Source: Deroplatys truncata
Taxonomy: Eukaryota > Arthropoda > Insecta > Mantodea > Mantidae
DNA: 64,000 bases
Assembly (NCBI GenBank): GCA_030765065.1
Contig: CM060978.1
Location: 111,581,692 to 111,645,691, forward strand
Direction: 5' to 3'
Part shown: positions 19,231 to 59,977 of the stretch, in pieces
How positions within the stretch are numbered: the stretch's first letter is position 1
Layout of the letters: each line of letters opens with the position of its first letter
Notes under the pieces: generated by a model
Told to the model about the DNA's origin: nothing
What the model saw: the letters and a program-made list of their open reading frames with translations, nothing else
Database searches by the model: none
Translations under genes and position numbers: made by a program

Positions 19231-19681
19231 AGTATGGGTTCCATTCACCTGACTTTCTCTATTCGCTCTTCTAGGTACAAACTATTCTTATAAAAACTCA
19301 TTCTTCTATCTACTTGTTAAACCTTCATCACACATTTTGTTGTAGGTATAAGAAGGCTACAGTAACCTAATCAATAGATAGATTTTTAAAAAGCTATGCG
19401 ATGGCTTTAAAATGCAATCCTCTTTGCTTGACCACGAGAAACACGTATTGGGACTTGCCTAAGTATTTGAAAATGTTAACCAATAACAACGAATATCTTG
19501 GAAATGATAATGCTACAAAAATGTTTGACATAACTTGTGCTCTTTAACCCGATCTACATATTTGTGTAGTAAGATTTAGTCTCTCTATTATTGTTTACCA
19601 ATCATACCAAAGTTATTCAGAATGAAGAGGACTTCACAGACTATTCTCAGGAAATTCAAGATACATGTTTTATTTGTCATG
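19231..19681 (-). repeat. 3' half of the Rep-A copy split by the Polinton-like element
   Basis: In minus orientation, from the junction leftward, it reads ATGACAAATAAAACATGTAT, then AACAATAATAGAGAGAC, then TACTACACAAATATGTAGAT, and ends in the family's 3' terminus (GAATAGAGAAAGTCAGGTGA, about 19252). The missing 5' half resumes at 35077. Confidence 0.75.
19676..19681. repeat. Target site duplication, left (GTCATG)
   Basis: GTCATG directly precedes the element end AGTAGGATATAT. The identical hexamer follows the other end at 35077-35082. Intact Rep-A copies have one corresponding site (TTATGACA), so it was duplicated on insertion. Confidence 0.85.
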
Positions 19682-19699
19682 AGTAGGATATATAGGAGA

Positions 19700-20480
19700 G
19701 AGCTGGGCCACTTTTTTGGGCATATATGGCAAAGGATAGGGAAAACGAGGCTGGATGGGGTGGTTCAAGGAGGAAAATGGGTTTATATGGAAGAGATAGG
19801 GAATACGACGACCGATACTATGCTAAAGAGGGTTGAAGGAGGGAAATACGTTTATATGGAAGAAATAGTAGAGAGGTGTTAGGCTAGGAGGGTTTAAGTG
19901 TGCGTTTATAAGGAGAGACGAGAAAACGGAGAGAGATCCTATGTTAGGATACACAGGTGTTTAAAGCTAGAATGTGTTTTATATAGGCTAGATAGGAAAC
20001 CAAAGAGATACTCAGCTAGACAGGGGAAAGAAGAAGAATGCGCTTTATGAGAGGTAGAGGATACGGGGAGTGGTGTTAGGCTAGACAGAGGTTGAGAGTA
20101 GAGTATGCGTTTATATGTATGAGAAGTATAGGAACAGGAAGAGGGTGCTAGGCTAGACAGAGGTTGAGGAGTAGAGTATAGGTTATATGAGAGGTATAGG
20201 AAAACGAGGGGAGGTGTTAGGCTAGACAGAGGTTGAAAATAGAGTATGGTTTATATGAGTGGTATAGGAAAAGGAGGAGAGGAGTTAGACTAGACAGAGG
20301 TCGAGGAGCAGAGTATGGTTTATGTGAGAGTCATAGGTAAACGAGAGAGGCGTTAGGCTAGACAGAGCTAGAGGAGTAGAGTATGTAGGAGAGGTGTTAG
20401 GCTAGACAGATACTAAAGGAGTAGCAATATGGGTTTATATACAGGAGAGATAGGGAATAGGAGGTGCTAGACTTGAAAGC
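19700..20480. repeat. Subterminal array I, left arm
   Basis: Tandem repeats of roughly 65-70 bp carry the core GGCTAGACAGAGGTTGAGGA, followed by a TTTATATG...GGTATAGGAAAACGAG block. At least eight degenerate copies are seen. The mirror is at about 34340-35060. Confidence 0.8.
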
Positions 20481-20554
20481 GACTTTAGACGTGAACTTAG
20501 TGGAAAACTGTTTCATGTCAATGTTCTAGACATGCCCATCACGTAACCTATTCA

Positions 20555-20962
20555 GGGAAAAAGGTGGCCCACAAAGGGAAAAAGTTGACTAGCAAAGGGA
20601 AAAACGTGACCAGAAAACAGAAATTACTAGCAAAAACTTTAATAATCAATCTGGAAAAACCCTACAAAACCGGATTAATAAATAAACCCCAGCCGCAACT
20701 AAAGTTGATGAATGAACAAGAGCTGAAACAGGGGTTGGAGCAGCTATCGCTGCAGGCAATCAAGCCGAAAAAGGAATTTGTGCACTTTTTGTTATTCCTG
20801 CCAAAGGGAAAAATGTGACCAGCAAAGGGAAAAAGGCGACCTGCAACGGGAAAAAGGTGACCAGTAAAGGGAAAAATGTGACCAGCAAACGGAAAAAGGC
20901 GACCACCAAAGGGAAAAAGGTGAGCCATAAAGGGAAAAAGGTGACCTGCAACGGGAAAAGCT
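20555..20962 (+). repeat. Array II, left arm: 21-bp repeat (AAAGGGAAAAAGGTGACCAGC type)
   Basis: A 21-bp unit that reads KGKKVTS in one frame. It is interrupted at 20614-20801 by a non-repetitive segment absent from the right arm. In this arm the frame opened at 20564 runs into that insertion and stops at 20818, so no full repeat protein is encoded. Confidence 0.8.
20614..20801. other. Left-arm-specific 188-bp insertion in array II
   Basis: Replaces about 27 bp of the 21-bp array present in the right arm. It is open in the frame of the array (…[17 protein letters not shown]…), but I recognise no family. It could be a captured fragment or a segment lost from the right arm. Confidence 0.55.
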
Positions 20963-20974
20963 AACCCACTAACA

Positions 20975-22290
20975 CTAACAGGTAAGTAATTCAGCTAGTT
21001 TTGCAAGAGGATGACTGGATCATAGCAGTGTATGATTTCACAGGTAATTCAGCTAGTATCGTATGTATTTAGGCTAATTCGTCTAGTAACACAGGATAGA
21101 TTCCAGATGCTAACTGCATCATGGCTCTGCATGATTTCACAGGTAATTCAGCTAGTATCGTAGGTATTTAGGCTAATTCAGCTAGTATCACAAGAGGATA
21201 GATTCTAGGGTTGGGTATAGCTTAGTGTCGTATTTCACAGGTAATTCAGAGAGTATCGTAGGTATTTAGGTTAATTCAAGTATCACAGACGTTTAGAGTA
21301 ATTCAGCTAGCATTACAGGAGGGTAGGTTCCAGGGGTTGGTTATAACATAGCTTCGTATTTCACAGATAGTTCAGGTAATATCGTAAGTATTTGAGGTAA
21401 TCGACATAGCTTCACAGATATTATTGATAATTTCGATCAGAGATTTGTATCACAGCTATTTAAGGTAATTTAAGTTGCATCAATGGTATTTGAGTCATTT
21501 TAACAGGTAATTCATCTAGTATCATTGGTATTTAAGGCAAACCAGATAGTATCACAGGTGCTCGTGCTAATTTAGAGCAGGAATTCGTATCAGAGCTAGT
21601 TAAGGTAATTACACATGATTCGGGTAGTATCACAGGTATTTAAGTCATTTTCACAGGCAATTCAGCTAGTTTCGTGAGCATTTAAGCTAATTCATCTAGT
21701 ATCACAGGACGCTAGATTCCAGAGGCTAACTGCATCATAGCTATGCATGATTTCACAGCTAATTCAGCTAGTATCGTAGGTATTTAGGCTAATTCAGCTA
21801 GTATCACAGGAGGCTAGATTCCAGGGTTGGGTATAGCATAGTTTCATATTTCACAGGTAATTCAGAGGGTATCGTAGGTATTTAGGATAATTCAAGTAAC
21901 ATAGGTGTTTAGAGTAATTAAGCAAGCATTACAGGAGGGTAGGTTCCAGGGGTTGGTTATAACGTAGTTTCGTATTTTACACATAGTTCAGGTAATACCG
22001 TAAGTATTTAGGTAATCAGCATAGTTTCACAGATGCTCGTAATAATTTCGATCAGAGATTTGTATCACAGCTATTTAAGGTAAATGCAGGTGATTCAGGT
22101 TGTATCAATGGCATTTGAGTCATTTTAACAGGTAATTCTGATAGTATCACAGGTGGTCGTACTAATTTAGAGCAGGAATTCGTATCTGAGCTAGTTAAGG
22201 TAATTTCGCATGATTCGGATAGTAACACAGGTATTTAAGTCATTTTAACGGGCAATTCAACTAGTATCACAGGTACTCATGGTAATATAG
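20975..22290. repeat. Array III, left arm: AATTCAGCTAGTATC-type repeats
   Basis: Short degenerate units (TTCAGCTAGTATCACAGG, TATTTAGGCTAA) make up a higher-order unit. The ATTCCAGA...CTAACTGCATCAT landmark at 21100 recurs at 21716, a period of about 616 bp. The mirror is at about 32700-34015. Confidence 0.8.
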
Positions 22291-22454
22291 AGAGTAATTA
22301 AATTATAAAACATTTCTCATCCAACGTTACAACAATTTATATACTTTTTTCTAAATCTTACAAACTTATTATATGTTAAACAGTTATTGTACGATGCGGA
22401 GAGGGATAAACTGCATATTGGTTCACAAATTGAAAAGCTTTACGTCAACATACC

Positions 22455-22460
22455 TTTATT
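22455..22460 (-). terminator. Polyadenylation signal of left PolB copy
   Basis: AATAAA on the minus strand followed by GGTATGTTGACGT, identical to the right-arm site. It lies about 205 nt beyond the ancestral PolB stop. Confidence 0.5.
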
Positions 22461-22664
22461 TTAGTTCGTTGTAGATGTCTCTCCCCTTTTATCTAGGCTT
22501 GAGACTAGCACTAGGATTGCTCCTAATGGCAGGGTTACCACCTTCCCTTCCATCTTCTTCTTTCTTCATCAGGCGTCAGCTATCAGCATATACAGCACAC
22601 AGATAACCTTCTTTTTTAAGATTGTAGACTCACGAGAAAATCTTTATCTTTAACTTACATTCTT

Positions 22665-22978
22665 TTAAGCACTGTTTGCAATATTGTAATGTCCATACGC
22701 ATATGTCGTTATCCCGTCTGCAGCAATAATTCTTTTATCATCAAACGGAGTCAATGCAATTTTATTCACTTGCACTGTAGCAAGAGCATGCTTTCGTGAT
22801 AGGATCAGATTCATAGATGTTCTGATGATTTCACCGGTTTTAAGACAGTCTGTATAGCTGTCAAACGAAATGTACTGCTTAATAGCGCTACGTTTTAAAC
22901 CTTAATCTTTTTTATCATTGACCCTTGAATATCTAAGGCATACATCTTAGGACGTAGTCCAACAAAGCGTAGGATGAT
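22665..22978 (-). pseudogene. Decayed C-terminal segment of left PolB
   Basis: This is the counterpart of 32013-32327. After the shared TAA, the frame continues to about 22900. There, a 1-nt deletion relative to the right arm (GATTAAGG versus GATTAAAGG) shifts it into a stop. Several further substitutions separate the two arms here, so this tail is more eroded than the 3.3 kb upstream. Confidence 0.8.
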
Positions 22979-25900
22979 TTAGCTATTAGCCTCATCTTTA
23001 AATTTTCCCAATACCTTCTTGTTCTGAGTAGAGTAACATATATGGTTGACAGGGTAATCAGCTGTATTGAGATGCTCAAGAGAACGTAGCTTATCCTGGT
23101 ACACGTCTTCAGTTGTTACACGATGAATGAACGAATCAGTGTCCATATACATAAGCTTCAGGTTTTCAGCTCCATAATAAGGCAACAAAACGTCGTAATG
23201 ATAGTTATACATTAATGTCTTGGAGATGTCCAACACACTCATACCAATGTATATAGGCTTGTTGAATACAATCTGACGAGAGGCCATATGTACAGCAGCT
23301 AGATTATCAGCATATATCGTCCTGTCGATAAACGTAGGCTTGGCGATCAGCTTCTCTAGAGTTTTTTCATTGGTCACCAGTCGTATATCCATACGGTTAC
23401 GCAGGTTCTCCATAGTTTTTCCAAACATAGCGTTGTTAAAGAGCTTGTAGAGATCCTTCTCGAAATCATTTGCAGCTTGTTGTCGTAGCCTGTTGTTAAA
23501 TTCCACATAAGGTTTCAACCACTGAGACTGTCGGAATTGTAGCACACGATGGATTTTTGTTAGTCGTAGTCCATGACTAAGAGCTTGCTTCAAAGCCATG
23601 TAATGCACTACATACTTCTTTCGAGGTCCAAGATGAGGTATCAGTTTCTTTGTAGATGATTCCAATGGTTTCATACACTCTGGCAGGAAAGGTAGATCGT
23701 TGTGTAGATCGTGAAGTTCAGCAGGATACTCGATGTCGACTTCTAATATGTACCCATGAGGATCATCTTCTTGTAGTGTTTCTAAGTTGATTTCTTCAGG
23801 TGACACCCAATGAAATCCACCAAAAGGAAGGGCGTGACACATTGCCCACCCATATTGGTTATTAGCGTCCTCGTATGTGATAAATTGGGTTGGTCTCGAC
23901 GGATCAAACTTATCCATATAAGTGTTATTAGCCTCAGCATACCGATGGGAAACTTGGCATAAACCTCCTCTTATACCTGATTCCACCATGAGTAGTTGAT
24001 CATAATCTTTTAACAGCTCCAGCTTAATTCCAGTATACAGTAACATGGCGTCCCATTTAAGACCTGGAGAGGTAAAATAATGGGCAGGATCAACTTTGTG
24101 TGTTTTAAGGGTTTGCTCTCTGAACGTCTCAAAGACATCAGCTAGGAGAAGTACATCCGAAGTTAAGTAGAGATCGCTGTACTCTCCCAGGTTTCTCACA
24201 TTAAACAGCTCCCATACATTTCTAGCATGATCGTAGTCAGTATCAGTAATTTCTTCTTCATTTAATCTATTGTAGAAGTAGTCCTTAGGAGGCAAGCAGG
24301 TCTCGTTCAGGACATTCCATGACGTAACAAAATCATAGGGAAATACACCCTTACGGGTCATCAACTTCAATTTGTCTTCTCCAAAGTACTTTAGCGTTTC
24401 AGGATACGAGGTTAGATTTTTTACCAACTTATCCAAGCTTGTACTGAGGAATCGGAAGCTATCCACAAATCGAAGCTTTATATCTCCTACATACTTGGTG
24501 AATGAGATATAGCTTTCTTCAGAGTTAGGAATTACCTCCACACGTTCACTTGTACAACCCAGCTCCTTAACAATGAAATGAGAGTCATATCCGCTAAGGT
24601 TATGCATGAAGACTGGTATATATTTAGGTGTTTTACAGGCTAAATTACATTCATTATGAAGACTTCCACGATATTCACCGCTGATGTGATCATGGTCGCG
24701 TACTTTGTAGTTTTCTCCTGTAAAGTCTTTTCCACACAAGTAGCATGCCGTAGAAGACTCAAAATCCTTTTGCTGTTGTTCCGTAAGTTTCAGAGGCTTA
24801 GCAGATTTGTATATGTCATCAATCATTTTTGCAAGAGATGTCAGGTACAGCATAAACTTCTGAGCAGCATCAGCACCACGATACACATAGGGTTGCTTAG
24901 GAAGACCAGTTTCGAGATGTTCAACACTGGATGTAGGCTTCACGTAAACACAGAAGCTCATTGATGTGTGCTCTTGATAAGGGGTTGTATAGGAAGTTTC
25001 AGGATTGGGAATACACGTATGGCATGGAGTGAGAATACTCTCAAAATCAGCATAGATGACATAAGGTACTTTCAGCATCCTCTCAACATTTTTAAACTGA
25101 ACAATTGATTTCTCCTTGGTAGGCATAACTACCCTCGCAACACCATGTTGAATACAGACGGCTACATGTTCTTGCAGTTTTTCCTGTCCACTTCGTCCAT
25201 ATCGATCATCAAAATGTGTAAAGCAGCGCTTACAAGTATAAACCCGTCCATTATGGTTAGTTTTCTGGCGTCGAATGAGTTTCTCAAAATTCTTTATATA
25301 TACGTAGTGATGTTTTCCACTACTATCACTCAATAGTAGCAGGTCGCAGTGTTCAGGTAGTTCAATATCAACAACCTTTATCGGATACACTTCATACTTC
25401 TCATCTAGCCCGAAAACGTTAATAGATATCTTGTTAAACTTCTCAAATTTAGGTATTTGAGAAAGTGGAGTAGGATAGGAAACACAGCTGAAGTCGTACT
25501 TATCTTGAAGCTGCCTGTATTTGCTGACGCGTTGAGGCTTGGTGCTCACGAATTTAGCTAATACGGAGTACATGAAACATTTCTCGTCGCTAAAGTTCTG
25601 AATGTTTATACATGCTTTCCTTGCTTCAACAGCTGACGGTAGTGGTATGTAGCTACTTCCTCGCAACGGATTGTACTTGTTGATACGAAGTCGAAGTCCT
25701 TCCACTGCAAGCAAAACCCAGTTGCTACCCTTAAGCTGAGACTCCTCCATTTCAGTCACCAATTTCTTGAATTTCACTTCCATCGCTGACTCCGGATCAG
25801 TTTCCAGGAAAACAGCTTGATTCCGTGTTTTAAATGTTTTGTCACAGGTTTCACCAATACTGTTAACAAATCGACACTCAGCCAGCAGATTAATTTTAAC

Positions 25901-26317
25901 ACTCTTATGAATGCTAAGCTCTTTATGCACAGCCTGGATTATCCGTTGTTTTGCCTCTTGCAGATACATATTCAGGTCCTTAGGTGACTCGCATCGTATA
26001 AAATACGATTTCAATCGTCCTTCGAATGAAGTTTCGTATTCTTTCATATCACAGTCCTCCATTGTTGACAGCAACTGATGTTTAGTTGGCTCCAATCTTC
26101 TTTTCTTCTGAGGGCTGCTTATTTCACATATATCTTCGTGTCGCTGCCCCTTATAACCATCTTTAAAGGTTACATTACAATGTTTACATTTGAAGAGCTT
26201 CTTGCAGCTCATCTCGTGTCTTCTCTTGTGATAACCTCGGAGGAACTTCTTCCCACATTTTCCGCATGCATATCCAGTAGCGCTTGGAATAATATCCTTA
26301 TACGATGAGTTATTCAT
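22979..26317 (-). CDS. polB: Protein-primed type B DNA polymerase, left copy, C-terminally truncated
   Basis: A 1112-residue frame, matching the right copy except at five residues (531, 533, 547, 668, 754; D, T, G, N, K here). Two N-terminal C2H2-type fingers (C18/C21/H34/C38 and C44/C47/H60/C64) and a third (C362/C365/H384/C388) precede the 3'-5' exonuclease: ExoI D424/E426, ExoII N573 and Y577-D578, ExoIII Y717/D721. A Cys-His module resembling endonuclease VII-type HNH fingers lies between (C525, C528, DHDH 541-544, H554, C557). Polymerase motifs are A (D817 in YEDANNQYG), B (K958 to G966) and C (MDTDS, D1059/D1061). All catalytic residues are present. The TAA at 22979-22981 precedes the conserved tail. 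The right copy's upstream promoter region is not shared. Confidence 0.9.
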   Translation of the reverse strand: MNNSSYKDIIPSATGYACGKCGKKFLRGYHKRRHEMSCKKLFKCKHCNVTFKDGYKGQRHEDICEISSPQKKRRLEPTKHQLLSTMEDCDMKEYETSFEGRLKSYFIRCESPKDLNMYLQEAKQRIIQAVHKELSIHKSVKINLLAECRFVNSIGETCDKTFKTRNQAVFLETDPESAMEVKFKKLVTEMEESQLKGSNWVLLAVEGLRLRINKYNPLRGSSYIPLPSAVEARKACINIQNFSDEKCFMYSVLAKFVSTKPQRVSKYRQLQDKYDFSCVSYPTPLSQIPKFEKFNKISINVFGLDEKYEVYPIKVVDIELPEHCDLLLLSDSSGKHHYVYIKNFEKLIRRQKTNHNGRVYTCKRCFTHFDDRYGRSGQEKLQEHVAVCIQHGVARVVMPTKEKSIVQFKNVERMLKVPYVIYADFESILTPCHTCIPNPETSYTTPYQEHTSMSFCVYVKPTSSVEHLETGLPKQPYVYRGADAAQKFMLYLTSLAKMIDDIYKSAKPLKLTEQQQKDFESSTACYLCGKDFTGENYKVRDHDHISGEYRGSLHNECNLACKTPKYIPVFMHNLSGYDSHFIVKELGCTSERVEVIPNSEESYISFTKYVGDIKLRFVDSFRFLSTSLDKLVKNLTSYPETLKYFGEDKLKLMTRKGVFPYDFVTSWNVLNETCLPPKDYFYNRLNEEEITDTDYDHARNVWELFNVRNLGEYSDLYLTSDVLLLADVFETFREQTLKTHKVDPAHYFTSPGLKWDAMLLYTGIKLELLKDYDQLLMVESGIRGGLCQVSHRYAEANNTYMDKFDPSRPTQFITYEDANNQYGWAMCHALPFGGFHWVSPEEINLETLQEDDPHGYILEVDIEYPAELHDLHNDLPFLPECMKPLESSTKKLIPHLGPRKKYVVHYMALKQALSHGLRLTKIHRVLQFRQSQWLKPYVEFNNRLRQQAANDFEKDLYKLFNNAMFGKTMENLRNRMDIRLVTNEKTLEKLIAKPTFIDRTIYADNLAAVHMASRQIVFNKPIYIGMSVLDISKTLMYNYHYDVLLPYYGAENLKLMYMDTDSFIHRVTTEDVYQDKLRSLEHLNTADYPVNHICYSTQNKKVLGKFKDEANS

Positions 26318-26377
26318 CTTTATTCTTGATGTAATAACGTATTAATCACTGATCAATGAAATGTAGACCTCTTCACC

Positions 26378-26383
26378 TTTATA
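26378..26383 (-). promoter_or_regulatory. TATAAA-like motif upstream of left PolB
   Basis: The minus strand reads GCTATAAAGG about 60 bp before the ATG; the right arm has GGTATCAAGG at the same place. This TATA-like motif is therefore specific to the left copy. Whether it acts as a promoter is unknown. Confidence 0.25.
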
Positions 26384-26394
26384 GCACTTTAGAA

Positions 26395-26515
26395 AGCGAT
26401 TAAACAGTACAAATAAAATGGGCGGGGCATGCCGGCATAGAACAAAGAAGCTTATCAGATATCAGCATCTCTCTGTGGGCTAGAACCGGCTTTTTAATTC
26501 TACTGTTTAATCGCT
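26395..26515. repeat. 15-bp inverted repeat at the inner junction of the left arm
   Basis: AGCGATTAAACAGTA (26395-26409) is the exact inverse of TACTGTTTAATCGCT (26501-26515), with a 91-bp loop containing ATGCCGGCAT. Arm homology ends within its left half. It could be a small MITE-like insertion or a scar of the event that made the palindrome. Confidence 0.6.
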
Positions 26516-26559
26516 TATATCTCCTGAATGAAAAGAGATACAACAATGGGATAAAAGCT

Positions 26560-27770
26560 AATCAATTCTTTGGAATGCGCCGCGTCATTAGGATATTGTT
26601 CCAAGTTGACGGGGATGCCTGGGTTCGAATCCTACGAGTGATTACAAATTCATCTTCTAATACCTCAGAGACTAATTACAATAAAGACGCCAAATAAACT
26701 TTATTACATTAAAATAATAAGGTAGTTTCTTGTAAATGTATATTTGGGTACCTGTTGTCCTGGGTTCGATAGTTAATTTTAAAAGCTTGATTATCTCGGA
26801 AACTAAGAGAGGTAGAGGGGCGAACCAAAGCATGTTTGATAGCTGTTATAATGCGTAATTAATACTGTATAAAAGTTCTAATCAGGTTTCCTTAGTTCGA
26901 ATCCCGATCTTTCAATCACTTCCTTAATTTTCCTCTATACTCTAGAATATGTCGCTTAGATTGATGCTGTAACTGTATACAGCTCTTTTAAACATATCAA
27001 ACTAACATTGTAAATAATTTTGTTTCTAGTGTTCTGGGTTCGAATACTGATAAAATGTAATTTAATTATAAATTTAATAACTCCTAAAGTAATTAAGATA
27101 AAGACGCCAAATAAACTTTATTGCATTTATGTTATTAGGAAGTATCTTGTAGATGTATAATTAGATACCTGACGTCCTGGGTTCGATCCTATATTTTAAA
27201 TTCTCATTATCTCGGGAACTAAGTGAGGTAGAGGAGTGCACCAAAGAATGATTGATAGGTTCTGTACTGGGTGATTAAGGTGTATATAATTGTCGATCAG
27301 TTGTGCTTGGTTCGATTCCCCATCTTTTAATGACTTCCTTAATTTTCCTCTGTACACTAGAATATATCACTTAGATCGATGATGTAACTGTATACAGCTT
27401 TGTTTAACATGTCGGACTAATATTATAAATTATTTTGTTCCTGGTGTTCTGGGTTCGAATACCGATTCAATGAAATTTACTTGCAAAAATTTAATAACTC
27501 GTAATTTAATTTAGATAGACATGTCAAGGTAAACGTAAACAGAGTATCTAGTCCTTAAATATCGTTATCATGACAAATATTACTTTAAAGTACTCAGATG
27601 GAATCCCGAAGGGGTGATTTCATAAATCTTCAAGCCTATGGATCATATCAGGTTCGAGTAAAGATTATATGCTAGTTGCTGATATTGGGGAGCTAAAATA
27701 CATTTATTAAAAGTATTACCGGGTTCGATTTAGAAGCTTAGAATCTGTGTAACTCTGGAAAAATTGCTTT
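26560..27770. repeat. Spacer array: ~140-bp monomers with tRNA B-box-like motif
   Basis: GGTTCGA (or AGTTCGA) occurs at 26622, 26763, 26894, 27037, 27180, 27309 and 27452, and again at 27651 and 27722. Spacings 141, 131, 143, 143, 129, 143 show a three-monomer higher-order unit of about 415 bp, confirmed by long matches 415-417 bp apart (for example AAAGACGCCAAATAAACTTT at 26683 and 27100). Two copies fit the full B-box GGTTCGANTCC (26622, 27309). No A-box or tRNA fold accompanies them. Confidence 0.75.
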
Positions 27771-28285
27771 TCTCATGATTGTAGTGAAATGTAATGGTCT
27801 TTCTGTGAGAAGATGGAAAGGAAGAATTGAAAAGGGAATGAAAACATGAAATAATTAAGTAAATAAGGGGGAAAATCTTGTACGTTACCTTTTAAGCTTT
27901 TACTTTAAGAATTGTGATAATACAGCTGGAATTAATCTTGGTACAATAGGTGGTGGTGGTGGTGGTGGTGGTGGTGGTGGTGGTGGTGGTGGTGGTGGTA
28001 GGCTTTGAACTTGAAATATATGCCTGAATGAGCGTTTGCTTTTCTCGTGATTGCAGTGAAATGTAATGGTCTTTCTGTAGGAAGATGGAAAGGAAGAATT
28101 GAAAAGGGAATGAAAACATGAAATAATTAAGTAAATAAGGGGAAAAATCTTCTAGGTTTCCTTTTAAGCTATTACTTTTAAGTATTGTGATAATACAGCT
28201 TGAATTAACCTTGGTACAATAGGTGGTGATGGTGGTGGTAGTGGTGGTAGGCTTGAATTTGAAATATATGTCTGAATGAGCGTGT
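27764..28285. repeat. 272-bp tandem duplication with GGT microsatellite
   Basis: TTGCTTTTCT...GTGAAATGTAATGG begins at 27764 and again at 28036. Unit 1 holds 17 GGT triplets (27949-27999), and unit 2 a short, interrupted GGT run (about 28223-28250). Confidence 0.85.
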
Positions 28286-28507
28286 GGGAATACTTCTCTT
28301 GCTGGTGTGTCAGCATAAGCAGGTAGTTATGACACGAGTTTAAACGTGTTTGATGCTGCCAGACATCCTGTCTCTGGGTGTGACGTCATAAACATCCTGT
28401 CTCTGGACTTGAGGTTATATGGCTGGGGGGTTAATACACGTTGAGCGATCATATACAGCTGGTTATGGAGCGAGCTTATGATTGATCCAAAAGGTTCGTG
28501 CTCCCTC

Positions 28508-28540
28508 TATAAATATGGTGATCTAGGGCATTGGACTTCA
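28508..28540 (+). promoter_or_regulatory. Core promoter of right PolB copy (TATA plus initiator)
   Basis: TATAAATA at 28508-28515, with a TTCATTG initiator-like sequence whose A is at 28540, 32 bp downstream of the box start. This is normal spacing for an arthropod core promoter. The predicted leader is about 134 nt to the ATG at 28674. The region lies just outside the inverted homology, so the left copy lacks it. Confidence 0.55.
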
Positions 28541-28673
28541 TTGTGCTAATTAGTCTTGAGGTGTTAACATCGTGTTCTCTCCAAGAATAATCAGCTTTCT
28601 AAAGTGGTATCAAGGTGAAGAGGTCTACATTTCATTGATCAGTGATTAATACGTTATTACATCAAGAATAAAG

Positions 28674-31600
28674 ATGAATAACTCATCGTATAAGGATATT
28701 ATTCCAAGCGCTACTGGATATGCATGCGGAAAATGTGGGAAGAAGTTCCTCCGAGGTTATCACAAGAGAAGACACGAGATGAGCTGCAAGAAGCTCTTCA
28801 AATGTAAACATTGTAATGTAACCTTTAAAGATGGTTATAAGGGGCAGCGACACGAAGATATATGTGAAATAAGCAGCCCTCAGAAGAAAAGAAGATTGGA
28901 GCCAACTAAACATCAGTTGCTGTCAACAATGGAGGACTGTGATATGAAAGAATACGAAACTTCATTCGAAGGACGATTGAAATCGTATTTCATACGATGC
29001 GAGTCACCTAAGGACCTGAATATGTATCTGCAAGAGGCAAAACAACGGATAATCCAGGCTGTGCATAAAGAGCTTAGCATTCATAAGAGTGTTAAAATTA
29101 ATCTGCTGGCTGAGTGTCGATTTGTTAACAGTATTGGTGAAACCTGTGACAAAACATTTAAAACACGGAATCAAGCTGTTTTCCTGGAAACTGATCCGGA
29201 GTCAGCGATGGAAGTGAAATTCAAGAAATTGGTGACTGAAATGGAGGAGTCTCAGCTTAAGGGTAGCAACTGGGTTTTGCTTGCAGTGGAAGGACTTCGA
29301 CTTCGTATCAACAAGTACAATCCGTTGCGAGGAAGTAGCTACATACCACTACCGTCAGCTGTTGAAGCAAGGAAAGCATGTATAAACATTCAGAACTTTA
29401 GCGACGAGAAATGTTTCATGTACTCCGTATTAGCTAAATTCGTGAGCACCAAGCCTCAACGCGTCAGCAAATACAGGCAGCTTCAAGATAAGTACGACTT
29501 CAGCTGTGTTTCCTATCCTACTCCACTTTCTCAAATACCTAAATTTGAGAAGTTTAACAAGATATCTATTAACGTTTTCGGGCTAGATGAGAAGTATGAA
29601 GTGTATCCGATAAAGGTTGTTGATATTGAACTACCTGAACACTGCGACCTGCTACTATTGAGTGATAGTAGTGGAAAACATCACTACGTATATATAAAGA
29701 ATTTTGAGAAACTCATTCGACGCCAGAAAACTAACCATAATGGACGGGTTTATACTTGTAAGCGCTGCTTTACACATTTTGATGATCGATATGGACGAAG
29801 TGGACAGGAAAAACTGCAAGAACATGTAGCCGTCTGTATTCAACATGGTGTTGCGAGGGTAGTTATGCCTACCAAGGAGAAATCAATTGTTCAGTTTAAA
29901 AATGTTGAGAGGATGCTGAAAGTACCTTATGTCATCTATGCTGATTTTGAGAGTATTCTCACTCCATGCCATACGTGTATACCCAATCCTGAAACTTCCT
30001 ATACAACCCCTTATCAAGAGCACACATCAATGAGCTTCTGTGTTTACGTGAAGCCTACATCCAGTGTTGAACATCTCGAAACTGGTCTTCCTAAGCAACC
30101 CTATGTGTATCGTGGTGCTGATGCTGCTCAGAAGTTTATGCTGTACCTGACATCTCTTGCAAAAATGATTGATGACATATACAAATCTGCTAAGCCCCTG
30201 AAACTTACGGAACAACAGCAAAAGGATTTTGAGTCTTCTACGGCATGCTACTTGTGTGGAAAAGGCTTTATGGGAGAAAACTACAAAGTACGCGACCATG
30301 ATCACATCAGCAATGAATATCGTGGAAGTCTTCATAATGAATGTAATTTAGCCTGTAAAACACCTAAATATATACCAGTCTTCATGCATAACCTTAGCGG
30401 ATATGACTCTCATTTCATTGTTAAGGAGCTGGGTTGTACAAGTGAACGTGTGGAGGTAATTCCTAACTCTGAAGAAAGCTATATCTCATTCACCAAGTAT
30501 GTAGGAGATATAAAGCTTCGATTTGTGGATAGCTTCCGATTCCTCAGTACAAGCTTGGATAAGTTGGTAAAAAATCTAACCTCGTATCCTGAAACGCTAA
30601 AGTACTTTGGAGAAGACAAATTGAAGTTGATGACCCGTAAGGGTGTATTTCCCTATGATTTTGTTACGTCATGGGATGTCTTGAACGAGACCTGCTTGCC
30701 TCCTAAGGACTACTTCTACAATAGACTAAATGAAGAAGAAATTACTGATACTGACTACGATCATGCTAGAAATGTATGGGAGCTGTTTAATGTGAGAAAC
30801 CTGGGAGAGTACAGCGATCTCTACTTAACTTCGGATGTACTTCTCCTAGCTGATGTCTTTGAGACGTTCAGAGAGCAAACCCTTAAAACACACAAAGTTG
30901 ATCCTGCCCATTATTTTACCTCTCCAGGTCTTACATGGGACGCCATGTTACTGTATACTGGAATTAAGCTGGAGCTGTTAAAAGATTATGATCAACTACT
31001 CATGGTGGAATCAGGTATAAGAGGAGGTTTATGCCAAGTTTCCCATCGGTATGCTGAGGCTAATAACACTTATATGGATAAATTTGATCCGTCGAGACCA
31101 ACCCAATTTATCACATACGAGGACGCTAATAACCAATATGGGTGGGCAATGTGTCACGCCCTTCCTTTTGGTGGATTTCATTGGGTGTCACCTGAAGAAA
31201 TCAACTTAGAAACACTACAAGAAGATGATCCTCATGGGTACATATTAGAAGTCGACATCGAGTATCCTGCTGAACTTCACGATCTACACAACGATCTACC
31301 TTTCCTGCCAGAGTGTATGAAACCATTGGAATCATCTACAAAGAAACTGATACCTCATCTTGGACCTCGAAAGAAGTATGTAGTGCATTACATGGCTTTG
31401 AAGCAAGCTCTTAGTCATGGACTACGACTAACAAAAATCCATCGTGTGCTACAATTCCGACAGTCTCAGTGGTTGAAACCTTATGTGGAATTTAACAACA
31501 GGCTACGACAACAAGCTGCAAATGATTTCGAGAAGGATCTCTACAAGCTCTTTAACAACGCTATGTTTGGAAAAACTATGGAGAACCTGCGTAACCGTAT

Positions 31601-32012
31601 GGATATACGACTGGTGACCAATGAAAAAACTCTAGAGAAGCTGATCGCCAAGCCTACGTTTATCGACAGGACGATATATGCTGATAATCTAGCTGCTGTA
31701 CATATGGCCTCTCGTCAGATTGTATTCAACAAGCCTATATACATTGGTATGAGTGTGTTGGACATCTCCAAGACATTAATGTATAACTATCATTACGACG
31801 TTTTGTTGCCTTATTATGGAGCTGAAAACCTGAAGCTTATGTATATGGACACTGATTCGTTCATTCATCGTGTAACAACTGAAGACGTGTACCAGGATAA
31901 GCTACGTTCTCTTGAGCATCTCAATACAGCTGATTACCCTGTCAACCATATATGTTACTCTACTCAGAACAAGAAGGTATTGGGAAAATTTAAAGATGAG
32001 GCTAATAGCTAA
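28674..32012 (+). CDS. polB: Protein-primed type B DNA polymerase, right copy (up to in-frame TAA)
   Basis: The polymerase would copy the element's linear DNA from a terminal protein primer. It has the same domain layout as its partner at 22979-26317: N-terminal Cys-His fingers, exonuclease motifs I-III, an EndoVII-like finger, and polymerase motifs A, B and C with intact acidic residues. Differences are D531G, T533M, G547N, N668D and K754T, three of them inside the EndoVII-like finger. The start ATG follows AATAAAG and is the first in the predicted leader. TAA at 32010-32012 interrupts the protein just before the conserved GLRPKMY segment. The frame then continues open, so this is either a recent nonsense allele shared by both arms or, less likely, a read-through site. 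It is the better preserved copy, with promoter and poly(A) signal. Confidence 0.92.
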   Translation: MNNSSYKDIIPSATGYACGKCGKKFLRGYHKRRHEMSCKKLFKCKHCNVTFKDGYKGQRHEDICEISSPQKKRRLEPTKHQLLSTMEDCDMKEYETSFEGRLKSYFIRCESPKDLNMYLQEAKQRIIQAVHKELSIHKSVKINLLAECRFVNSIGETCDKTFKTRNQAVFLETDPESAMEVKFKKLVTEMEESQLKGSNWVLLAVEGLRLRINKYNPLRGSSYIPLPSAVEARKACINIQNFSDEKCFMYSVLAKFVSTKPQRVSKYRQLQDKYDFSCVSYPTPLSQIPKFEKFNKISINVFGLDEKYEVYPIKVVDIELPEHCDLLLLSDSSGKHHYVYIKNFEKLIRRQKTNHNGRVYTCKRCFTHFDDRYGRSGQEKLQEHVAVCIQHGVARVVMPTKEKSIVQFKNVERMLKVPYVIYADFESILTPCHTCIPNPETSYTTPYQEHTSMSFCVYVKPTSSVEHLETGLPKQPYVYRGADAAQKFMLYLTSLAKMIDDIYKSAKPLKLTEQQQKDFESSTACYLCGKGFMGENYKVRDHDHISNEYRGSLHNECNLACKTPKYIPVFMHNLSGYDSHFIVKELGCTSERVEVIPNSEESYISFTKYVGDIKLRFVDSFRFLSTSLDKLVKNLTSYPETLKYFGEDKLKLMTRKGVFPYDFVTSWDVLNETCLPPKDYFYNRLNEEEITDTDYDHARNVWELFNVRNLGEYSDLYLTSDVLLLADVFETFREQTLKTHKVDPAHYFTSPGLTWDAMLLYTGIKLELLKDYDQLLMVESGIRGGLCQVSHRYAEANNTYMDKFDPSRPTQFITYEDANNQYGWAMCHALPFGGFHWVSPEEINLETLQEDDPHGYILEVDIEYPAELHDLHNDLPFLPECMKPLESSTKKLIPHLGPRKKYVVHYMALKQALSHGLRLTKIHRVLQFRQSQWLKPYVEFNNRLRQQAANDFEKDLYKLFNNAMFGKTMENLRNRMDIRLVTNEKTLEKLIAKPTFIDRTIYADNLAAVHMASRQIVFNKPIYIGMSVLDISKTLMYNYHYDVLLPYYGAENLKLMYMDTDSFIHRVTTEDVYQDKLRSLEHLNTADYPVNHICYSTQNKKVLGKFKDEANS

Positions 32013-32327
32013 ATCATCCTACGCTTTGTTGGACTACGTCCTAAGATGTATGCCTTAGATATTCAAGGGTCAATGATAAAAAAGATTAAAGGTATAAAAC
32101 GTAGCGCTATTAAGCAGTACATTTCGTTTGACAGCTATACAGACTGTCTTAAAACCAGTGAAATCATGAGAACACCTATGAATCTGATCCTATCACGAAA
32201 GCATGCTCTTGCTACAGTGCAAGTGAATAAAATTGCATTGACTCCGTTTGATGATAACAGAATTATTGCTGAGGACGGGATAACGACATATGCGTATGGA
32301 CATTACAATATTACAAACAGTGCTTAA
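32013..32327 (+). pseudogene. polB: In-frame C-terminal continuation of right PolB
   Basis: Directly after the TAA the same frame stays open for 104 codons to TAA at 32325-32327. It includes FVGLRPKMYAL, a Lys-rich GIKR segment, and a tail with an NKIALTPFDDNR block and a terminal TYAYGHYN. These resemble the conserved C-terminus of this polymerase class (GLRPK, then a His/Asn-Lys region, then a DDKR-like motif, then YGH). An internal ATG at 32046 could start a separate peptide, but the homology extends upstream of it, so it is the polymerase tail. Confidence 0.85.
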
Positions 32328-32531
32328 AAGAATGTAAGTTAAAGATAAAGATTTTCTCGTGAGTCTACAATCTTAAAAAAGAAGGTTATCTGTGTGCTGT
32401 ATATGCTGATAGCTGACGCCTGATGAAGAAAGAAGAAGATGGAAGGGAAGGTGGTAACCCTGCCATTAGGAGCAATCCTAGTGCTAGTCTCAAGCCTAGA
32501 TAAAAGGGGAGAGACATCTACAACGAACTAA

Positions 32532-32537
32532 AATAAA
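32532..32537 (+). terminator. Polyadenylation signal of right PolB
   Basis: AATAAA about 205 nt after the distal stop, followed by the GT-containing GGTATGTTGACGT. The mirror is at 22455-22460. Confidence 0.5.
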
Positions 32538-32699
32538 GGTATGTTGACGTAAAGCTTTTCAATTTGTGAACCAATATGCAGTTTATCCCTCTCCGCATCG
32601 TACAATAACTGTTTAACATATAATAAGTTTGTAAGATTTAGAAAAAAGTATATAAATTGTTGTAACGTTGGATGAGAAATGTTTTATAATTTAATTACT

Positions 32700-34015
32700 C
32701 TCTATATTACCATGAGTACCTGTGATACTAGTTGAATTGCCCGTTAAAATGACTTAAATACCTGTGTTACTATCCGAATCATGCGAAATTACCTTAACTA
32801 GCTCAGATACGAATTCCTGCTCTAAATTAGTACGACCACCTGTGATACTATCAGAATTACCTGTTAAAATGACTCAAATGCCATTGATACAACCTGAATC
32901 ACCTGCATTTACCTTAAATAGCTGTGATACAAATCTCTGATCGAAATTATTACGAGCATCTGTGAAACTATGCTGATTACCTAAATACCTACGATATTAC
33001 CTGAACTATGTGTAAAATACGAAACTACGTTATAACCAACCCCTGGAACCTACCCTCCTGTAATGCTTGCTTAATTACTCTAAACACCTATGTTACTTGA
33101 ATTATCCTAAATACCTACGATACCCTCTGAATTACCTGTGAAATATGAAACTATGCTATACCCAACCCTGGAATCTAGCCTCCTGTGATACTAGCTGAAT
33201 TAGCCTAAATACCTACGATACTAGCTGAATTAGCTGTGAAATCATGCATAGCTATGATGCAGTTAGCCTCTGGAATCTAGCCTCCTGTGATACTAGATGA
33301 ATTAGCTTAAATGCTCACGATACTAGCTGAATTGCCTGTGAAAATGACTTAAATACCTGTGATACTACCCGAATCATGTGTAATTACCTTAACTAGCTCT
33401 GATACGAATTCCTGCTCTAAATTAGCACGAGCACCTGTGATACTATCTGGTTTGCCTTAAATACCAATGATACTAGATGAATTACCTGTTAAAATGACTC
33501 AAATACCATTGATGCAACTTAAATTACCTTAAATAGCTGTGATACAAATCTCTGATCGAAATTATCAATAATATCTGTGAAGCTATGTCGATTACCTCAA
33601 ATACTTACGATATTACCTGAACTATCTGTGAAATACGAAGCTATGTTATAACCAACCCCTGGAACCTACCCTCCTGTAATGCTAGCTGAATTACTCTAAA
33701 CGTCTGTGATACTTGAATTAACCTAAATACCTACGATACTCTCTGAATTACCTGTGAAATACGACACTAAGCTATACCCAACCCTAGAATCTATCCTCTT
33801 GTGATACTAGCTGAATTAGCCTAAATACCTACGATACTAGCTGAATTACCTGTGAAATCATGCAGAGCCATGATGCAGTTAGCATCTGGAATCTATCCTG
33901 TGTTACTAGACGAATTAGCCTAAATACATACGATACTAGCTGAATTACCTGTGAAATCATACACTGCTATGATCCAGTCATCCTCTTGCAAAACTAGCTG
34001 AATTACTTACCTGTT
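32700..34015. repeat. Array III, right arm
   Basis: Inverse of 20975-22290: units GATACTAGCTGAATTACCTG and TTAGCCTAAATACC, with the same approximately 616-bp higher-order duplication. Confidence 0.8.
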
Positions 34016-34027
34016 AGTGTTAGTGGG

Positions 34028-34261
34028 TTAGCTTTTCCCGTTGCAGGTCACCTTTTTCCCTTTATGGCTCACCTTTTTCCCTTTGGTGGTCGCCTTTTTC
34101 CGTTTGCTGGTCACATTTTTCCCTTTACTGGTCACCTTTTTCCCGTTGCAGGTCGCCTTTTTCCCTTTGCTGGTCACATTTTTCCCTTTACTGGTCACCT
34201 TTTCCCTTTGCTGGTCACGTTTTTTCCCTTTGCTAGTCAACTTTTTCCCTTTGTGGGCCAC
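34028..34261 (-). CDS. Lysine-rich heptad-repeat ORF (KGKKVTS) in array II, right arm
   Basis: A 77-residue frame reading inward from the terminus, built almost wholly of K-G-K-K/N-V/A-T-S/C heptads from a 21-bp DNA unit. Two compensating A-run length changes near residues 13-20 shift and then restore the frame, so it remains open from MAHKGKK to the final stop. The very basic composition would suit a DNA- or RNA-binding peptide. However, a tandem array whose unit is a multiple of three will show such a frame by chance, and the left arm counterpart is disrupted. Treat it as a hypothetical protein or simply a satellite array. Confidence 0.25.
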   Translation of the reverse strand: MAHKGKKLTSKGKKRDQQREKVTSKGKNVTSKGKKATCNGKKVTSKGKNVTSKRKKATTKGKKVSHKGKKVTCNGKS

Positions 34262-34339
34262 CTTTTTCCCTGAATAGGTTACGTGATGGGCATGTCTAGA
34301 ACATTAACATGAAACAGTTTTCCACTAAGTTCACGTCTA

Positions 34340-35060
34340 AAGTCGCTTTCAAGTCTAGCACCTCCTATTCCCTATCTCTCCTGTATATAAACCCATATTG
34401 CTACTCCTTTAGTATCTGTCTAGCCTAACACCTCTCCTACATAATCTACTCCTCTAGCTCTGTCTAGCCTAACGCCTCTCTCGTTTACCTATGACTCTCA
34501 CATAAACCATACTCTGCTCCTCGACCTCTGTCTAGTCTAACTCCTCTCCTCGTTTTCCTATACCACTCATATAAACCATACTCTACTCCTCAACCTCTGT
34601 CTAGCCTAGCACCCTCTTCCTGTTCCTATACTTCTCATACATATAAACGCATACTCTACTCTCAACCTCTGTCTAGCCTAACACCGCTCCCCGTATCCTC
34701 TACTTCTCATAAAGCGCATTCCTCTCCTGTCCCCTGTCTAGCTGAGTATCTCTTTGGTTTCCTATCTAGCCTATATAAAACACATTCTAGCTTTAAACAC
34801 CTGTGTATCCTAACATAGGATCTCTCTCCATTTTCTCGTCTCTCCTTATAAACGCATACTTAAACCCTCCTAGCCTAACACCTCTCTACTATTTCTTCCA
34901 TATAAACGTATTTCCCTCCTTCAACCCTCTTTAGCATAGTATCGGTCGTCGTATTCCCTATCTCTTCCATATAAACCCATTTTCCTCCTTGAACCACCCC
35001 ATCCAGCCTCGTTTTCCCTATCCTTTCCCATATATGCCCAAAAAAGTGGCCCAGCTCTCT
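34340..35060. repeat. Subterminal array I, right arm
   Basis: Inverse of the left array: CCTCAACCTCTGTCTAGCC and CTCATATAAACCATACTC units of about 65-70 bp. Confidence 0.8.
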
Positions 35061-35076
35061 CCGATATATCCTACTG

Positions 35077-35082
35077 TCATGC
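35077..35082. repeat. Target site duplication, right (GTCATG)
   Basis: Matches 19676-19681 and is followed directly by Rep-A sequence. Confidence 0.85.
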
Positions 35083-39115: not shown

Positions 39116-40280
39116 AGTGGTATGACTAGTTGAATGAGGCCAGTAAGTCTGTGACCGTCGCTAGTCCTGAGCAGCACTGTTCTCACCTGTCCATCCCGAC
39201 AACGTACCGTGTCTTCGATGAGAGCTCTTTTCCACAAATGTCGATTACGTAAATCTTCTTATAGAAGAACCAGGTCTCCTACTCTCGGTTTACTCCATTG
39301 ACACTCGACTTGATGGTAGGAAATTACTTCTAGTACATGTTTTATCGCCAGTCGTTTCTGGAGGTGCTCGGTAGCTTGCTGCTGGAGGCGAAGCTTTTTC
39401 AAGTTGATACTTAAAGATGGTTCAGGTCCGGAAGGGATGCTATCCAGGCGGCATACGTTGAGGAACTGAGCTGGAGTCAGTGCAATGTAACCCTCATCCT
39501 GAAGCAGGGGGCGTGAATTAATATAGGCTTCTGTACTCGTTATTATAGTGTTCAGAGTGTAGGTGTCCACTTGTCTAGGTCCTAAGACTTTCCGCAGACA
39601 CCGTTTTACTATGCCCACCATTTGCTCCCACCAAGCAGACCGTGAGATAATGAATTCTCAATTAATGCCATTTTGCGCAAAGAATTGCACGGTTTTATCC
39701 GTGGTGGTAGAGTATACGACGTTCACTAAGCTCCTTGTTGGCTGAATGGAATGTTGCTGCGTTGTCCAAATACATAATGTGGAGGCCTCTGTGACTGACA
39801 CATCTTTGTAGTCCTATGACAACCTTATCCAGGCTCATTTCAGATGTCAGTTCAAGGTGTACCGCCCGTGTGATGGCTCATGTGAAGACCAAAACGTAAA
39901 CCTTCTGGATGATGTTACCTTGTTTTTGCATACAATGGTCCAACGGAGTCCAATCCGGTGACGGAGAAGGGTAGTGAGTCTGGAGGACGATCGGTGGGTA
40001 AAGGTCCCTCGAACACCCTTGCTGTGGGATTGTGAGCGATTTTACATAGCAGGCATGAGCGAATAACTTTCTTGATAGCCAGTCGTGCTCTAAAAATCCA
40101 AAATTGTAGACGTAGTTCAGTCAGTTCGATCCGCACTCCCAGATGGTGTAGTTTTGCACGAGTTTTCTTGATGAGACGTCTAGTGAAGCGTTGGGAACCA
40201 TCAAGCAGCTATGGATGGATTTCATTGAAGGAAGCGCTGAGAACTGTAATCGATCACCTAGGTGGATAAGATTATCCTCC
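39083..40280 (-). pseudogene. pol: BEL/Pao integrase, broken
   Basis: A fragment at 39915-40136 has the zinc-binding CLLC pair and the first catalytic aspartate region (VTGLDSVGPLY). The segment at 39259-39650 starts in a WWEQMVGIVKR context, carries the EAYINSRPL glutamate region, and extends through PAQFLN to a C-terminal domain ending PRVGDLVLL. After a stop, the tail continues to about 39083 with a CRDGQVRTV block. Stops and frameshifts separate the pieces, and the middle aspartate region is poorly preserved. Confidence 0.8.
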
Positions 40281-40639
40281 AAGAAAGGTTGAAAGCGTGC
40301 AAGTTTTAGACTCTTTTTGTAGAGGTAAATTTTGTTTCAAGGCCGCGTATTCAATGGGAAAACTCTGTGGCTGGGCAATGGAGATCAAATATGTTCCACG
40401 GAAGTCTAGTTCAGCAGCCATTAATTCTCCCTGGCGTTTGTCACTATTTTGACAATTATAAGAAAAAGAAAATCCAGCCTACATCCCGAAGTAGTTTAAG
40501 GTAGGAACTGAATCTAGTGACCGAAATTAAAAAATGAGGTATGCCAATTGCCAGTATTCGCTTCGTAAATTTTCCAGCTTCTGTAAGTTCAGCTTGTTCT
40601 ATCAGAATGGGGCCACTGGTCTGAAGAACACATAGCCAC

Positions 40640-41290
40640 TTAAGGCAATGCCAGCAAGTTTTGGCAGAAATCAGTTCTGATCTTGAAGTCCTCTAGATAA
40701 AACCATCCGCAAAGTTCTCTATTCCTGGGCAATGCCTCCACTGAGAATTTGAAGTGTAACTGACAATCTCGGTTACTCAATTGCAAATACATTTTTTTCC
40801 AGCGATTAGATTCACTGCGAATCCAATCAACACTAACAGTGGAGTCAGTCCACAAGGTTGCTTTCGCAATGTCAATACTAGTAGCTTCACAGACGTACGG
40901 CAACAGTCGTGCAAGCAACTAGCTAGCGTAGCAAGCAACTCCAAACGTAGAGCGCACCACAGCGGCAGTGGTAGTCTGTGAACGATAATATATAGCAGCA
41001 CCAAATGCCCTTTCTGAAGCGTCACGGAAGACATGGAGTGTAGAGTCTTAGCGTTTTCATTCATTGCTCCTACCCGACGTGGAATTTTAATTCCAGATAA
41101 GCGACGCAAATTAGTGAACCATAGTAACAGTTTTGCGCTGATATTAGCTGGCAGTGTTTCATTCCAACCAATGCCTCGACACCAGGTGTCTTGGAAATAT
41201 TGTGGTGGTGTGTACAAGCCGAGTAGGAAGTAATCTGGAAGTACTCTGGAGTAGAAGTCGGTTAGTTTGGTCTTCTTCCGAGGTAATTTA
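40640..41290 (-). pseudogene. pol: BEL/Pao peptidase/RNase H-like region, broken
   Basis: The stretch with IKIPRRVG and WFTNLRRLSG corresponds to the Pao-specific segment after the reverse transcriptase. In another frame, TLWTDSTVSVDWIRSESNRW is an RNase H-like aspartate motif (DST). A frameshift between the two frames disrupts continuity. Confidence 0.75.
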
Positions 41291-41377
41291 GAATACCATC
41301 AGGAGATGCAGAAAATTGATCTAACTCAGTATCCCAGTCAATTCCCAAGACTTATGGCTTCATATGTTAACTCAATC

Positions 41378-41710
41378 CTAAGTTTTTTCAGGTGTCTCAC
41401 AGAGCAACAGAATTTGTGGCCATTTTGACATAGGTAACTTAATGATGTTTATTACAGCAATGATCTCTGTAAAAATTGTTGGAATTCCTTTCTCGTTGTC
41501 AACTGATACTGCGAAGACGTCCATGTAAGTGCATTTGTCTAGGAGTGGAGAAGCATTGGGGAAATTCTGAGTATACGTTGTTTGTAGTTCCCGAATTGTT
41601 GCAGACAAAAGAAATGGGCCACGCGAAAGACCAAATGGCAATCTTGTAAATCGATATGTGATAATTTCACCAGCAAAGTGAGGTTTGCCTTCGTCATCTG
41701 CTGCCACTAG
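41378..41710 (-). pseudogene. pol: BEL/Pao reverse transcriptase fragment
   Basis: A 109-residue frame with the palm segment YRFTRLPFGLSRGPFLLSAT and the following catalytic box. The box reads YMDV where active enzymes have Y-x-D-D, so the second catalytic aspartate is lost. Upstream sequence (41710-41880) is decayed. Confidence 0.82.
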
Positions 41711-42315
41711 ATATCACAGAAATTTAGCTAAGTTTCTATTCGCAGGATCCAGCATCAATTACAGAAATACTTGACTTATGTCGCCTAGAAGTGCGTATTT
41801 ATTTAGTCTGAATCTTAACAACGGCCCATAACTCTGGCAGGAGGTTGGGTCCCATTTACAAAACATCATTCAATGAGGGAGACCTGCAACTGTGGGACGA
41901 TGCATTGAACACTATTCTCCATTTTTCTTATGCTTGTTTTTTTTCCTTTCTTCACGGCGTGATGTGACAGATTTAATGAACGCTCACTACCTTGTCTGTG
42001 TTAGCAACTTCTACGTGACCCTGAAGAATGTAGTTATTCATACAACATTCGTAAATGCTCCGATACGCCGCATTCTTCTGAAAAGTTCTACTTAAAGCTT
42101 TGAGTTGATATTCCGCATTTGGAAGATTCTGGTCGGTGAGTGAAATGCCTCTCTTTGGAAGCAACGCTACTCTTCTGCCGTACTCTATACATAATTAGTT
42201 ATGGAAATGCTGAGTGAGTTTGTATTGCTCATAGTTTGTAAATGTGTCGTAGTTCCTTTGATATCCATGAGTATGTAGGAAAGGATAAACACAGCATACT
42301 TCTTTGCGTCTACAT

Positions 42316-42402
42316 GGGAGAGACAGGGAAAACGAGGTGAGATGCTAGGCTGGGCCGGTGTTGAAGGGCATCTCACCTATTTCTTCCATATAAACAGGTG
42401 AG
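42316..42402. repeat. Small palindromic fragment resembling Polinton array I
   Basis: AGGTGAGATGC (42335-42345) is the exact inverse of GCATCTCACCT (42368-42378). The left side (GGGAAAACGAGGTGAGATGC, then GCTAGGC and GTTGAAGG) and the inverted right side (TATTTCTTCCATATAAAC) both resemble units of the terminal array at 19700-20480. Confidence 0.5.
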
Positions 42403-42507
42403 GGTCTTCGATCAATTTCAATAATGGCACCCTCAATCTGTACCTCAATGGGTAAGTCTGACGAATCTCTTCTTCAATCTACTAGTGGCACCTTGTGAGT
42501 GCAGCAT

Positions 42508-43440: not shown

Positions 43441-43542
43441 ATGTCTTCGGAAAATACCTGAAGGATCTTATATGCCAGGATATGTCCATAGCTGGGACAT
43501 CCTCACCTAGGGCTGGAAGAGCCTGTATTTTCCGGTCGCATT

Positions 43543-57900: not shown

Positions 57901-57908
57901 TGTTTTTT

Positions 57909-59951: not shown

Positions 59952-59977
59952 ATGTGAGTGTAACACATCAGATTTTT

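Follow-up and report, generated by a model that had tools for sequence, protein, structure and literature searches.

How a mobile element comes to carry the same polymerase gene twice, in arms that are almost exact inverse copies of one another, is the question raised by an insertion in the genome of the mantis Deroplatys truncata. The insertion occupies positions 19682-35075 of a 64,000 nucleotide stretch of contig CM060978.1 (hereafter 'the window') and resembles the Polintons, a group regarded as a central link among transposons, adenovirus-like viruses and linear plasmids. The original prediction for this locus described a near-palindromic element with a DNA polymerase B (PolB) gene in each arm. 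Our analysis suggests that it is probably a Polinton derivative encoding PolB only, which originated through a snap-back at one terminus, has been rebuilt from one arm by way of a hairpin and is integrated in trans.

If such a lineage of PolB-only inverted dimers exists, it would show a route by which a linear, protein-primed replicon can become a hairpin replicon. The presence of many copies within one genome also makes concerted copying of the arms, integration in trans and the decay of large palindromes both datable and testable. Gene annotation, meanwhile, may list elements of this type as two unrelated PolB genes.

A single insertion and its recurrent family

The element has AG..CT ends, with the terminus AGTAGGATATAT at 19682 and its exact inverse, ATATATCCTACT, at 35075. 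Directly outside these lie the two copies of a 6 bp target site duplication, GTCATG (19676-19681 and 35076-35081), just as had been described from the sequence. Self-alignment delimits a left arm of approximately 6.7 kb (19682-26397), comprising the terminus, a tandem-repeat zone, PolB in reverse orientation and the PolB 5' leader, and a right arm of approximately 6.5 kb (28594-35075) in which this order is mirrored; large blocks of the two are 97-99% complementary, and the large inverted arms originally reported are therefore present. Between the arms there are 47 substitutions and two 1-base indels, together with changes in length of 68, 130 and 38 bases, and hence they are not one sequence printed twice. 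All three length changes fall in the tandem-repeat zone between PolB and the terminus, which spans 20046-22299 in the left arm, where it consists of 68, 21 and 99-126 bp units, and 32718-34711 in the right.

When 900 bases of each flank were joined through a single GTCATG and aligned within the window, they matched without interruption a host repeat at 58423-57904 on the reverse strand (526 columns, 68% identity, 57 gap columns), as well as further paralogues of this repeat in pieces. As this represents an unoccupied insertion site, both outer ends of the element originate from one insertion event, and the inverted arms at 19682-35075 are confirmed as part of one clean insertion. The host repeat is arranged in tandem at 57900-60900; the paralogue beside 19.68 and 35.08 kb was the insertion target, and another paralogue has been hit by a different element, at the locus L067 discussed below.

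The window copy is one of many. Across the same genome (4.29 Gb in 818 contigs), the 12-mer AGTAGGATATAT occurs 5757 times, compared with 1129 times for the reversed control. The first 100 places listed yielded 15 neighbouring plus/minus pairs within 40 kb, 14 of which were fetched, the pair left out being one of 2.8 kb at C1:16965016. Twelve of these 14 were palindromes with PolB in both arms, flanked by 6 bp duplications that were exact and mutually different in ten cases and carried a one-base mismatch in two. In nine palindromes a single alignment, 7.9-8.8 kb long and 99.58-100% identical, connects the arms; the remaining three are deleted or diverged (longest pieces 98.65%, 98.4% and 95.6% identical). 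Total lengths ranged from 12.4 to 18.9 kb, with ten between 16.3 and 18.9 kb. The copies sampled are thus usually near-perfect inverted dimers, in most cases of 16-19 kb, whose arms, around 8-9 kb each, meet at an asymmetric loop of about 91 nt; the window copy is a deletion-bearing member of the family. Among the 41 rows scored in a search with the PolB leader, the 12 neighbouring pairs less than 12 kb apart (the window included) all face each other, with none in tandem. The palindromic PolB-only form is accordingly a recurrent family in this genome, with the same ends found at other sites beside differing 6 bp duplications, which upholds the proposal that such elements may form an independent mobile lineage.

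One fetched pair, L021/L022, was rejected as a chance pairing lacking PolB, arms or a duplication, and a control interval between two outward-facing ends (L040/L041) likewise contained neither PolB nor inverted arms. The remaining fetched pair bounds a 24.9 kb element at C1:13060516-13085414 (L031-L033), with AGTAGGATATAT ends and, judging from the end contexts, a TACATA duplication. It has no PolB match, consists in part of long inverted and tandem blocks and has a few stretches in common with the palindromes, as would be expected of a relative without coding capacity, which it appears to be.

Both PolB frames of the window copy (22979-26317, reverse strand; 28674-32012, forward strand) extend for 1112 codons and point away from one another, as had been predicted, but neither gene is whole. 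Both are interrupted by the same stop at codon 1113, beyond which the right arm remains open for 104 codons (32013-32324, forward strand), and in the left arm a 1-base indel additionally disrupts the C-terminal remainder. A natural gene end at codon 1113 was rejected, as the frame reads on in other copies; six uninterrupted genes elsewhere in the genome, read on the right half of each element, are 1217 codons long. A TATA box, TATAAATA, is found at 28508-28515 on the forward strand, 166 nt upstream of the PolB start codon, and the spacing is identical in all seven other copies looked at. In the window element no frame but PolB exceeds 144 codons, and in two full arms scanned none but PolB exceeds 154.

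Between copies, PolB appears to be maintained by purifying selection, given a ratio of non-synonymous to synonymous substitution rates of approximately 0.24 over codons 640-1112 (11 copies, giving 55 non-independent comparisons). Its relatives by sequence are insect and adintovirus polymerases, the named matches being from Chrysoperla, Hylaeus, Rhodnius, Halyomorpha and Ladona, and the catalytic motifs are conserved in an alignment of 15 proteins. In a search with the predicted structure, the best viral matches by E-value were polymerases of the bidna/densovirus type and those of adintoviruses. It is this kinship that suggests PolB may be protein-primed.

The palindrome centre and the partner element

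The arms of the window copy had been thought to flank a spacer. This 2.2 kb segment was considered as a separate insert and rejected, as it consists of the palindrome centre, or loop (26410-26500), followed by the right inner arm (26501-28593), a region with no long frame and a 415 bp tandem pair. The 'spacer' is mostly right inner arm because the left counterpart, approximately 1.8 kb in length, has been deleted beside the true centre. The resulting left junction looks private to this copy: in a 300-base search (40 of 2894 candidates scored, with one row being the right arm of the window copy), only the window itself reads across it, the other 40 rows ending no later than the point of deletion. 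The inner arm is alike in the five halves compared, and the asymmetric central segment of about 91 nt is alike in seven copies, including that in the window, where centre and stem together fold well as single-stranded DNA (z -4.7). The bases adjoining the loop vary among elements, while mostly remaining complementary within any one of them.

A 31-base part of the centre has 784 matches in the genome (371 and 413 on the two strands, with up to two mismatches), some of them at places other than palindrome centres, compared with none for the control. Thirteen new centres were hand-picked from the first 100 matches listed and 500 bases read around each. In eight, the inverted arms are 99.5-100% alike over approximately 195 bp; three more are palindromes that have lost 0.4-1.1 kb of one arm next to the loop, a lesion resembling that in the window. 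Another of these places, L059 (C1:73767830-73768330), may be a recombinant, as a normal arm on one side is faced by a short tandem repeat unrelated to it. Elsewhere, six matches to the 31-mer occur within 4.4 kb (C1:291345625-291349979), forming a local cluster or amplification.

A tree of the arms of 13 elements, the window copy and 12 others, places the two arms of each element as sisters in every case; five pairs are identical, and one has a support of 0.42. Arms within an element differ at 0-26 positions per 1419 nt, with a median of one, and the median difference between elements is 2.2%. Disabling lesions are shared by both arms in five of the 13 (the window copy, E19, E27, E29 and E34), and two have private lesions and truncations alone; in six, PolB residues 1-1112 are uninterrupted in both arms. 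The two arms of each element therefore descend from one template. Sister arms with common lesions are as predicted by copying around a hairpin, a process that cannot homogenise the loop, which is the part that is asymmetric. That elements with PolB broken in both arms are flanked by clean duplications suggests supply in trans, provided that the lesion preceded insertion.

The likely source of the loop emerged from another new centre, L067. Here the loop sequence continues as far as ..CGCCATTATATTTCTACT, ending exactly at CTACT, and the host repeat, 91-93% identical to the copies in the window, starts one or two bases further on. Loop sequence meeting host repeat in this manner means that, elsewhere, it forms the end of another element. 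A 22-mer from this end has 294 matches in the genome (up to one mismatch), some of them palindrome centres, relative to none for the control; among the first 100 places listed, 19 minus/plus pairs were picked by eye, 17 of which are spaced 14.6-19.5 kb apart. One such pair (L072-L075, C7:238446207-238462861) was read over 11.9 of its 16.7 kb, in four separate stretches. This partner element has identical terminal repeats of 579 bp, an ACCGGG duplication and a terminus resembling the palindrome centre. It encodes a PolB 37% identical to that of the palindromes and a double-jelly-roll capsid protein (PF21738, 1.3e-96); another of its proteins matches adenovirus-PX above the cut-off and, marginally under it, a phospholipase-like model. 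By eye, and without Pfam support, two further frames look like a protease and a minor capsid protein; three frames at one end of the element had no Pfam match above the cut-off. An integrase was not matched in the 11.9 kb read, using one distant integrase as a weak probe. We take the partner to be a canonical Polinton or adintovirus, a type known here from one element partly read.

In the palindromes the order of the centre is arm, AGTAG.., loop, ..CTACT, inverse arm, the arrangement expected if a 3' terminus ending in CTACT had primed its own extension. This points to an ancestor of approximately 8.9 kb with two unlike ends, AGTAGGATATAT on one side and an end of the partner type (..TTTCTACT) on the other. 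While this ancestor was being copied by protein-primed strand displacement, the 3' strand of its partner-type end would have folded back, paired with an inverted copy of approximately its last 16 bases that lay close by, and primed its own synthesis. The product would have been a head-to-head dimer that ended in AGTAGGATATAT on both sides and kept the former terminus as its loop. From then on, every strand displaced during replication would snap back into a hairpin, and PolB, starting at the remaining protein-linked end and passing the loop, would rebuild both arms from one. An integrase supplied in trans would then insert the dimer, generating the 6 bp duplication, after which the chromosomal palindrome would decay, often through one-sided deletion beside the loop, as in the window copy. 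Fold-back during protein-primed replication, as initially envisaged, thus seems the most likely origin. The original prediction had also invoked terminal repeats growing inward until they swallowed polB; given that the centre resembles a former terminus, this step is superfluous.

A more ambitious version of this scheme, which we judge to have an even chance of being right, is that these are breeding hairpin Polintons. The palindromes would then be one-gene, protein-primed replicons propagating as hairpins of approximately 8.8 kb, with a protein-linked end and a closed loop that is the fossil terminus of the capsid-encoding partner. They would be integrated in trans, and perhaps packaged, by that partner, such that a virus and its satellite have become fixed in one genome.

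Alternative explanations and other features of the window

A number of observations weigh against the scheme of snap-back followed by hairpin copying. The sample of end pairs demanded AGTAGGATATAT at both ends, and so would miss undimerised copies with a different second end; 24 of the 41 PolB-leader rows fall in inverted pairs, leaving 17 without a scored neighbour. The loop was not found by motif in three of the nine family pairs compared (L019, L025 and L029), and two of the 13 new centres, L059 and L067, are not palindromic. As the closest two different elements are separated by only seven differences per 1419 nt, the ranges of divergence within and between elements overlap. We infer, rather than observe, the hairpin and the terminal protein. 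With regard to protein priming, the predicted PolB structure is of modest quality and low confidence (predicted local distance difference test 65.8, predicted template modelling score 0.42), its viral structural matches have template modelling scores near 0.2 and those in the PDB are weak. The Pfam PolB model had no match in scans of the window frames, where the sole Pfam match, an endonuclease VII insert, fell below the curated cut-off in both.

The same likeness between arms could arise after insertion, if an element with unlike halves, or a palindrome made just once, were subsequently kept uniform by chromosomal gene conversion, which would also spread lesions to both arms. The arm differences in the window copy are indeed clustered, with long clean runs and tight groups beyond those in all 5000 random placements; some groups adjoin alignment gaps in the tandem arrays, and the pattern leaves room for some later conversion. 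Yet older copies have arms that have diverged rather than been homogenised (by 1.8% in one and 0.5-0.6% in two others), in many copies the likeness between arms extends all the way to the loop, and conversion at scattered sites would not create 12 dimers out of 12 with one loop common to all the centres read. As the principal explanation, conversion is therefore unlikely. Much less probable still is that one arm is real and the other an assembly fold-back. Such palindromes are hard to assemble, and several copies have arms that are completely or nearly identical, but ten of the 12 family copies have outer ends with matching duplications, the arms in the window differ by substitutions and array lengths, its flanks join into an intact host repeat and a single asymmetric loop is found at the centres of many copies.

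Alternatively, canonical Polintons might occasionally yield palindromic deletion dimers that insert but do not breed. Dimers of this kind occur in other protein-primed replicons, and both the canonical-looking relative in the same genome and the several copies with broken PolB are in keeping with a dead by-product of this type. However, the examined copies share one PolB lineage, one loop and, in the five halves compared, the same inner arm, and so look like descendants of one founder dimer. Purifying selection appears to act on PolB between copies, and the PolB of the canonical-looking element read is only 37% identical to theirs. This explanation is quite unlikely, and a snap-back origin with propagation through a hairpin remains the reading we prefer.

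Three other features of the window lie outside the element. An open frame of 364 codons at 5781-6872, on the reverse strand, has no Pfam match. Broken frames at 39262-44774, also on the reverse strand, bear a resemblance by eye to a BEL/Pao-type retroelement. Finally, a direct repeat links 4161-5067 and 7301-8212, which are 98% alike over 912 bp.

Comparison with known systems

Polintons are defined by AG..CT ends, 6 bp target site duplications and an inverted-repeat architecture. The palindromes share these features of linear Polinton/Maverick elements and adintoviruses, along with the kinship of their PolB. In contrast to them, PolB is the sole long frame in the arms scanned, and the repeats are whole arms, each with a PolB, rather than the much shorter terminal repeats of the canonical-looking element on C7. 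No other long frame that might encode a capsid protein, protease, ATPase or integrase was found in the window element or two full arms, and a tblastn search of the window element and 24 halves with one distant integrase, a weak query, had no match. Likewise, adintoviruses combine PolB with a hexon and an integrase, whereas the palindromes have PolB only. The family is thus Polinton-derived, but fails the definition of a Polinton on integrase, capsid genes and repeat length.

Viral contigs scanned with a single PolB gave no match. With a PolB alignment, two Polinton-type contigs were found, both distant, and the stretches available from them contained no long inverted arms. Bacterial and archaeal contigs included 17 with PolB, presumably mis-binned, that lack long inverted arms, although 16 of these are shorter than 7.2 kb and hence too short to judge. 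A literature search from which subscription journals were largely absent identified no published palindromic PolB-only Polinton, and none is described in the available portions of PMC6431247, PMC4061559, PMC11071296, PMC12721341 and PMC12910113. Three elements from Oxyrrhis have repeats of 232-858 bp (PMC12721341).

Several of the nearest matches to the predicted PolB structure are polymerases of the bidna/densovirus type, and bidnavirus PolB is itself described as Polinton-derived (PMC4061559). According to the same source, bidnaviruses have capsid and helicase genes, and their repeats are said not to form hairpins like those of parvoviruses (PMC4061559). The palindromic element differs in having no second long frame, and therefore neither a parvovirus-type helicase nor a capsid gene. 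Teratorn, a fusion of a herpesvirus with piggyBac, involves an unrelated virus and transposase, and is not palindromic over its whole length.

The foldback elements FB, Galileo and Tetris are characterised by inverted repeats of great length that contain many tandem repeats. Structurally, the palindromes are comparable, since long inverted repeats account for the greater part of the element and a duplication arises on insertion, a likeness that implies no common descent; unlike in these elements, the arms encode PolB, and the ends and duplications are of the Polinton type. A parallel in form is provided by the yeast pGKL1 derivatives F1 and F2 and by derivatives of adenovirus, in which an inverted dimer and a hairpin monomer are two forms of one replicon. 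Those are laboratory or defective forms, whereas the palindromes of D. truncata constitute a chromosomal family.

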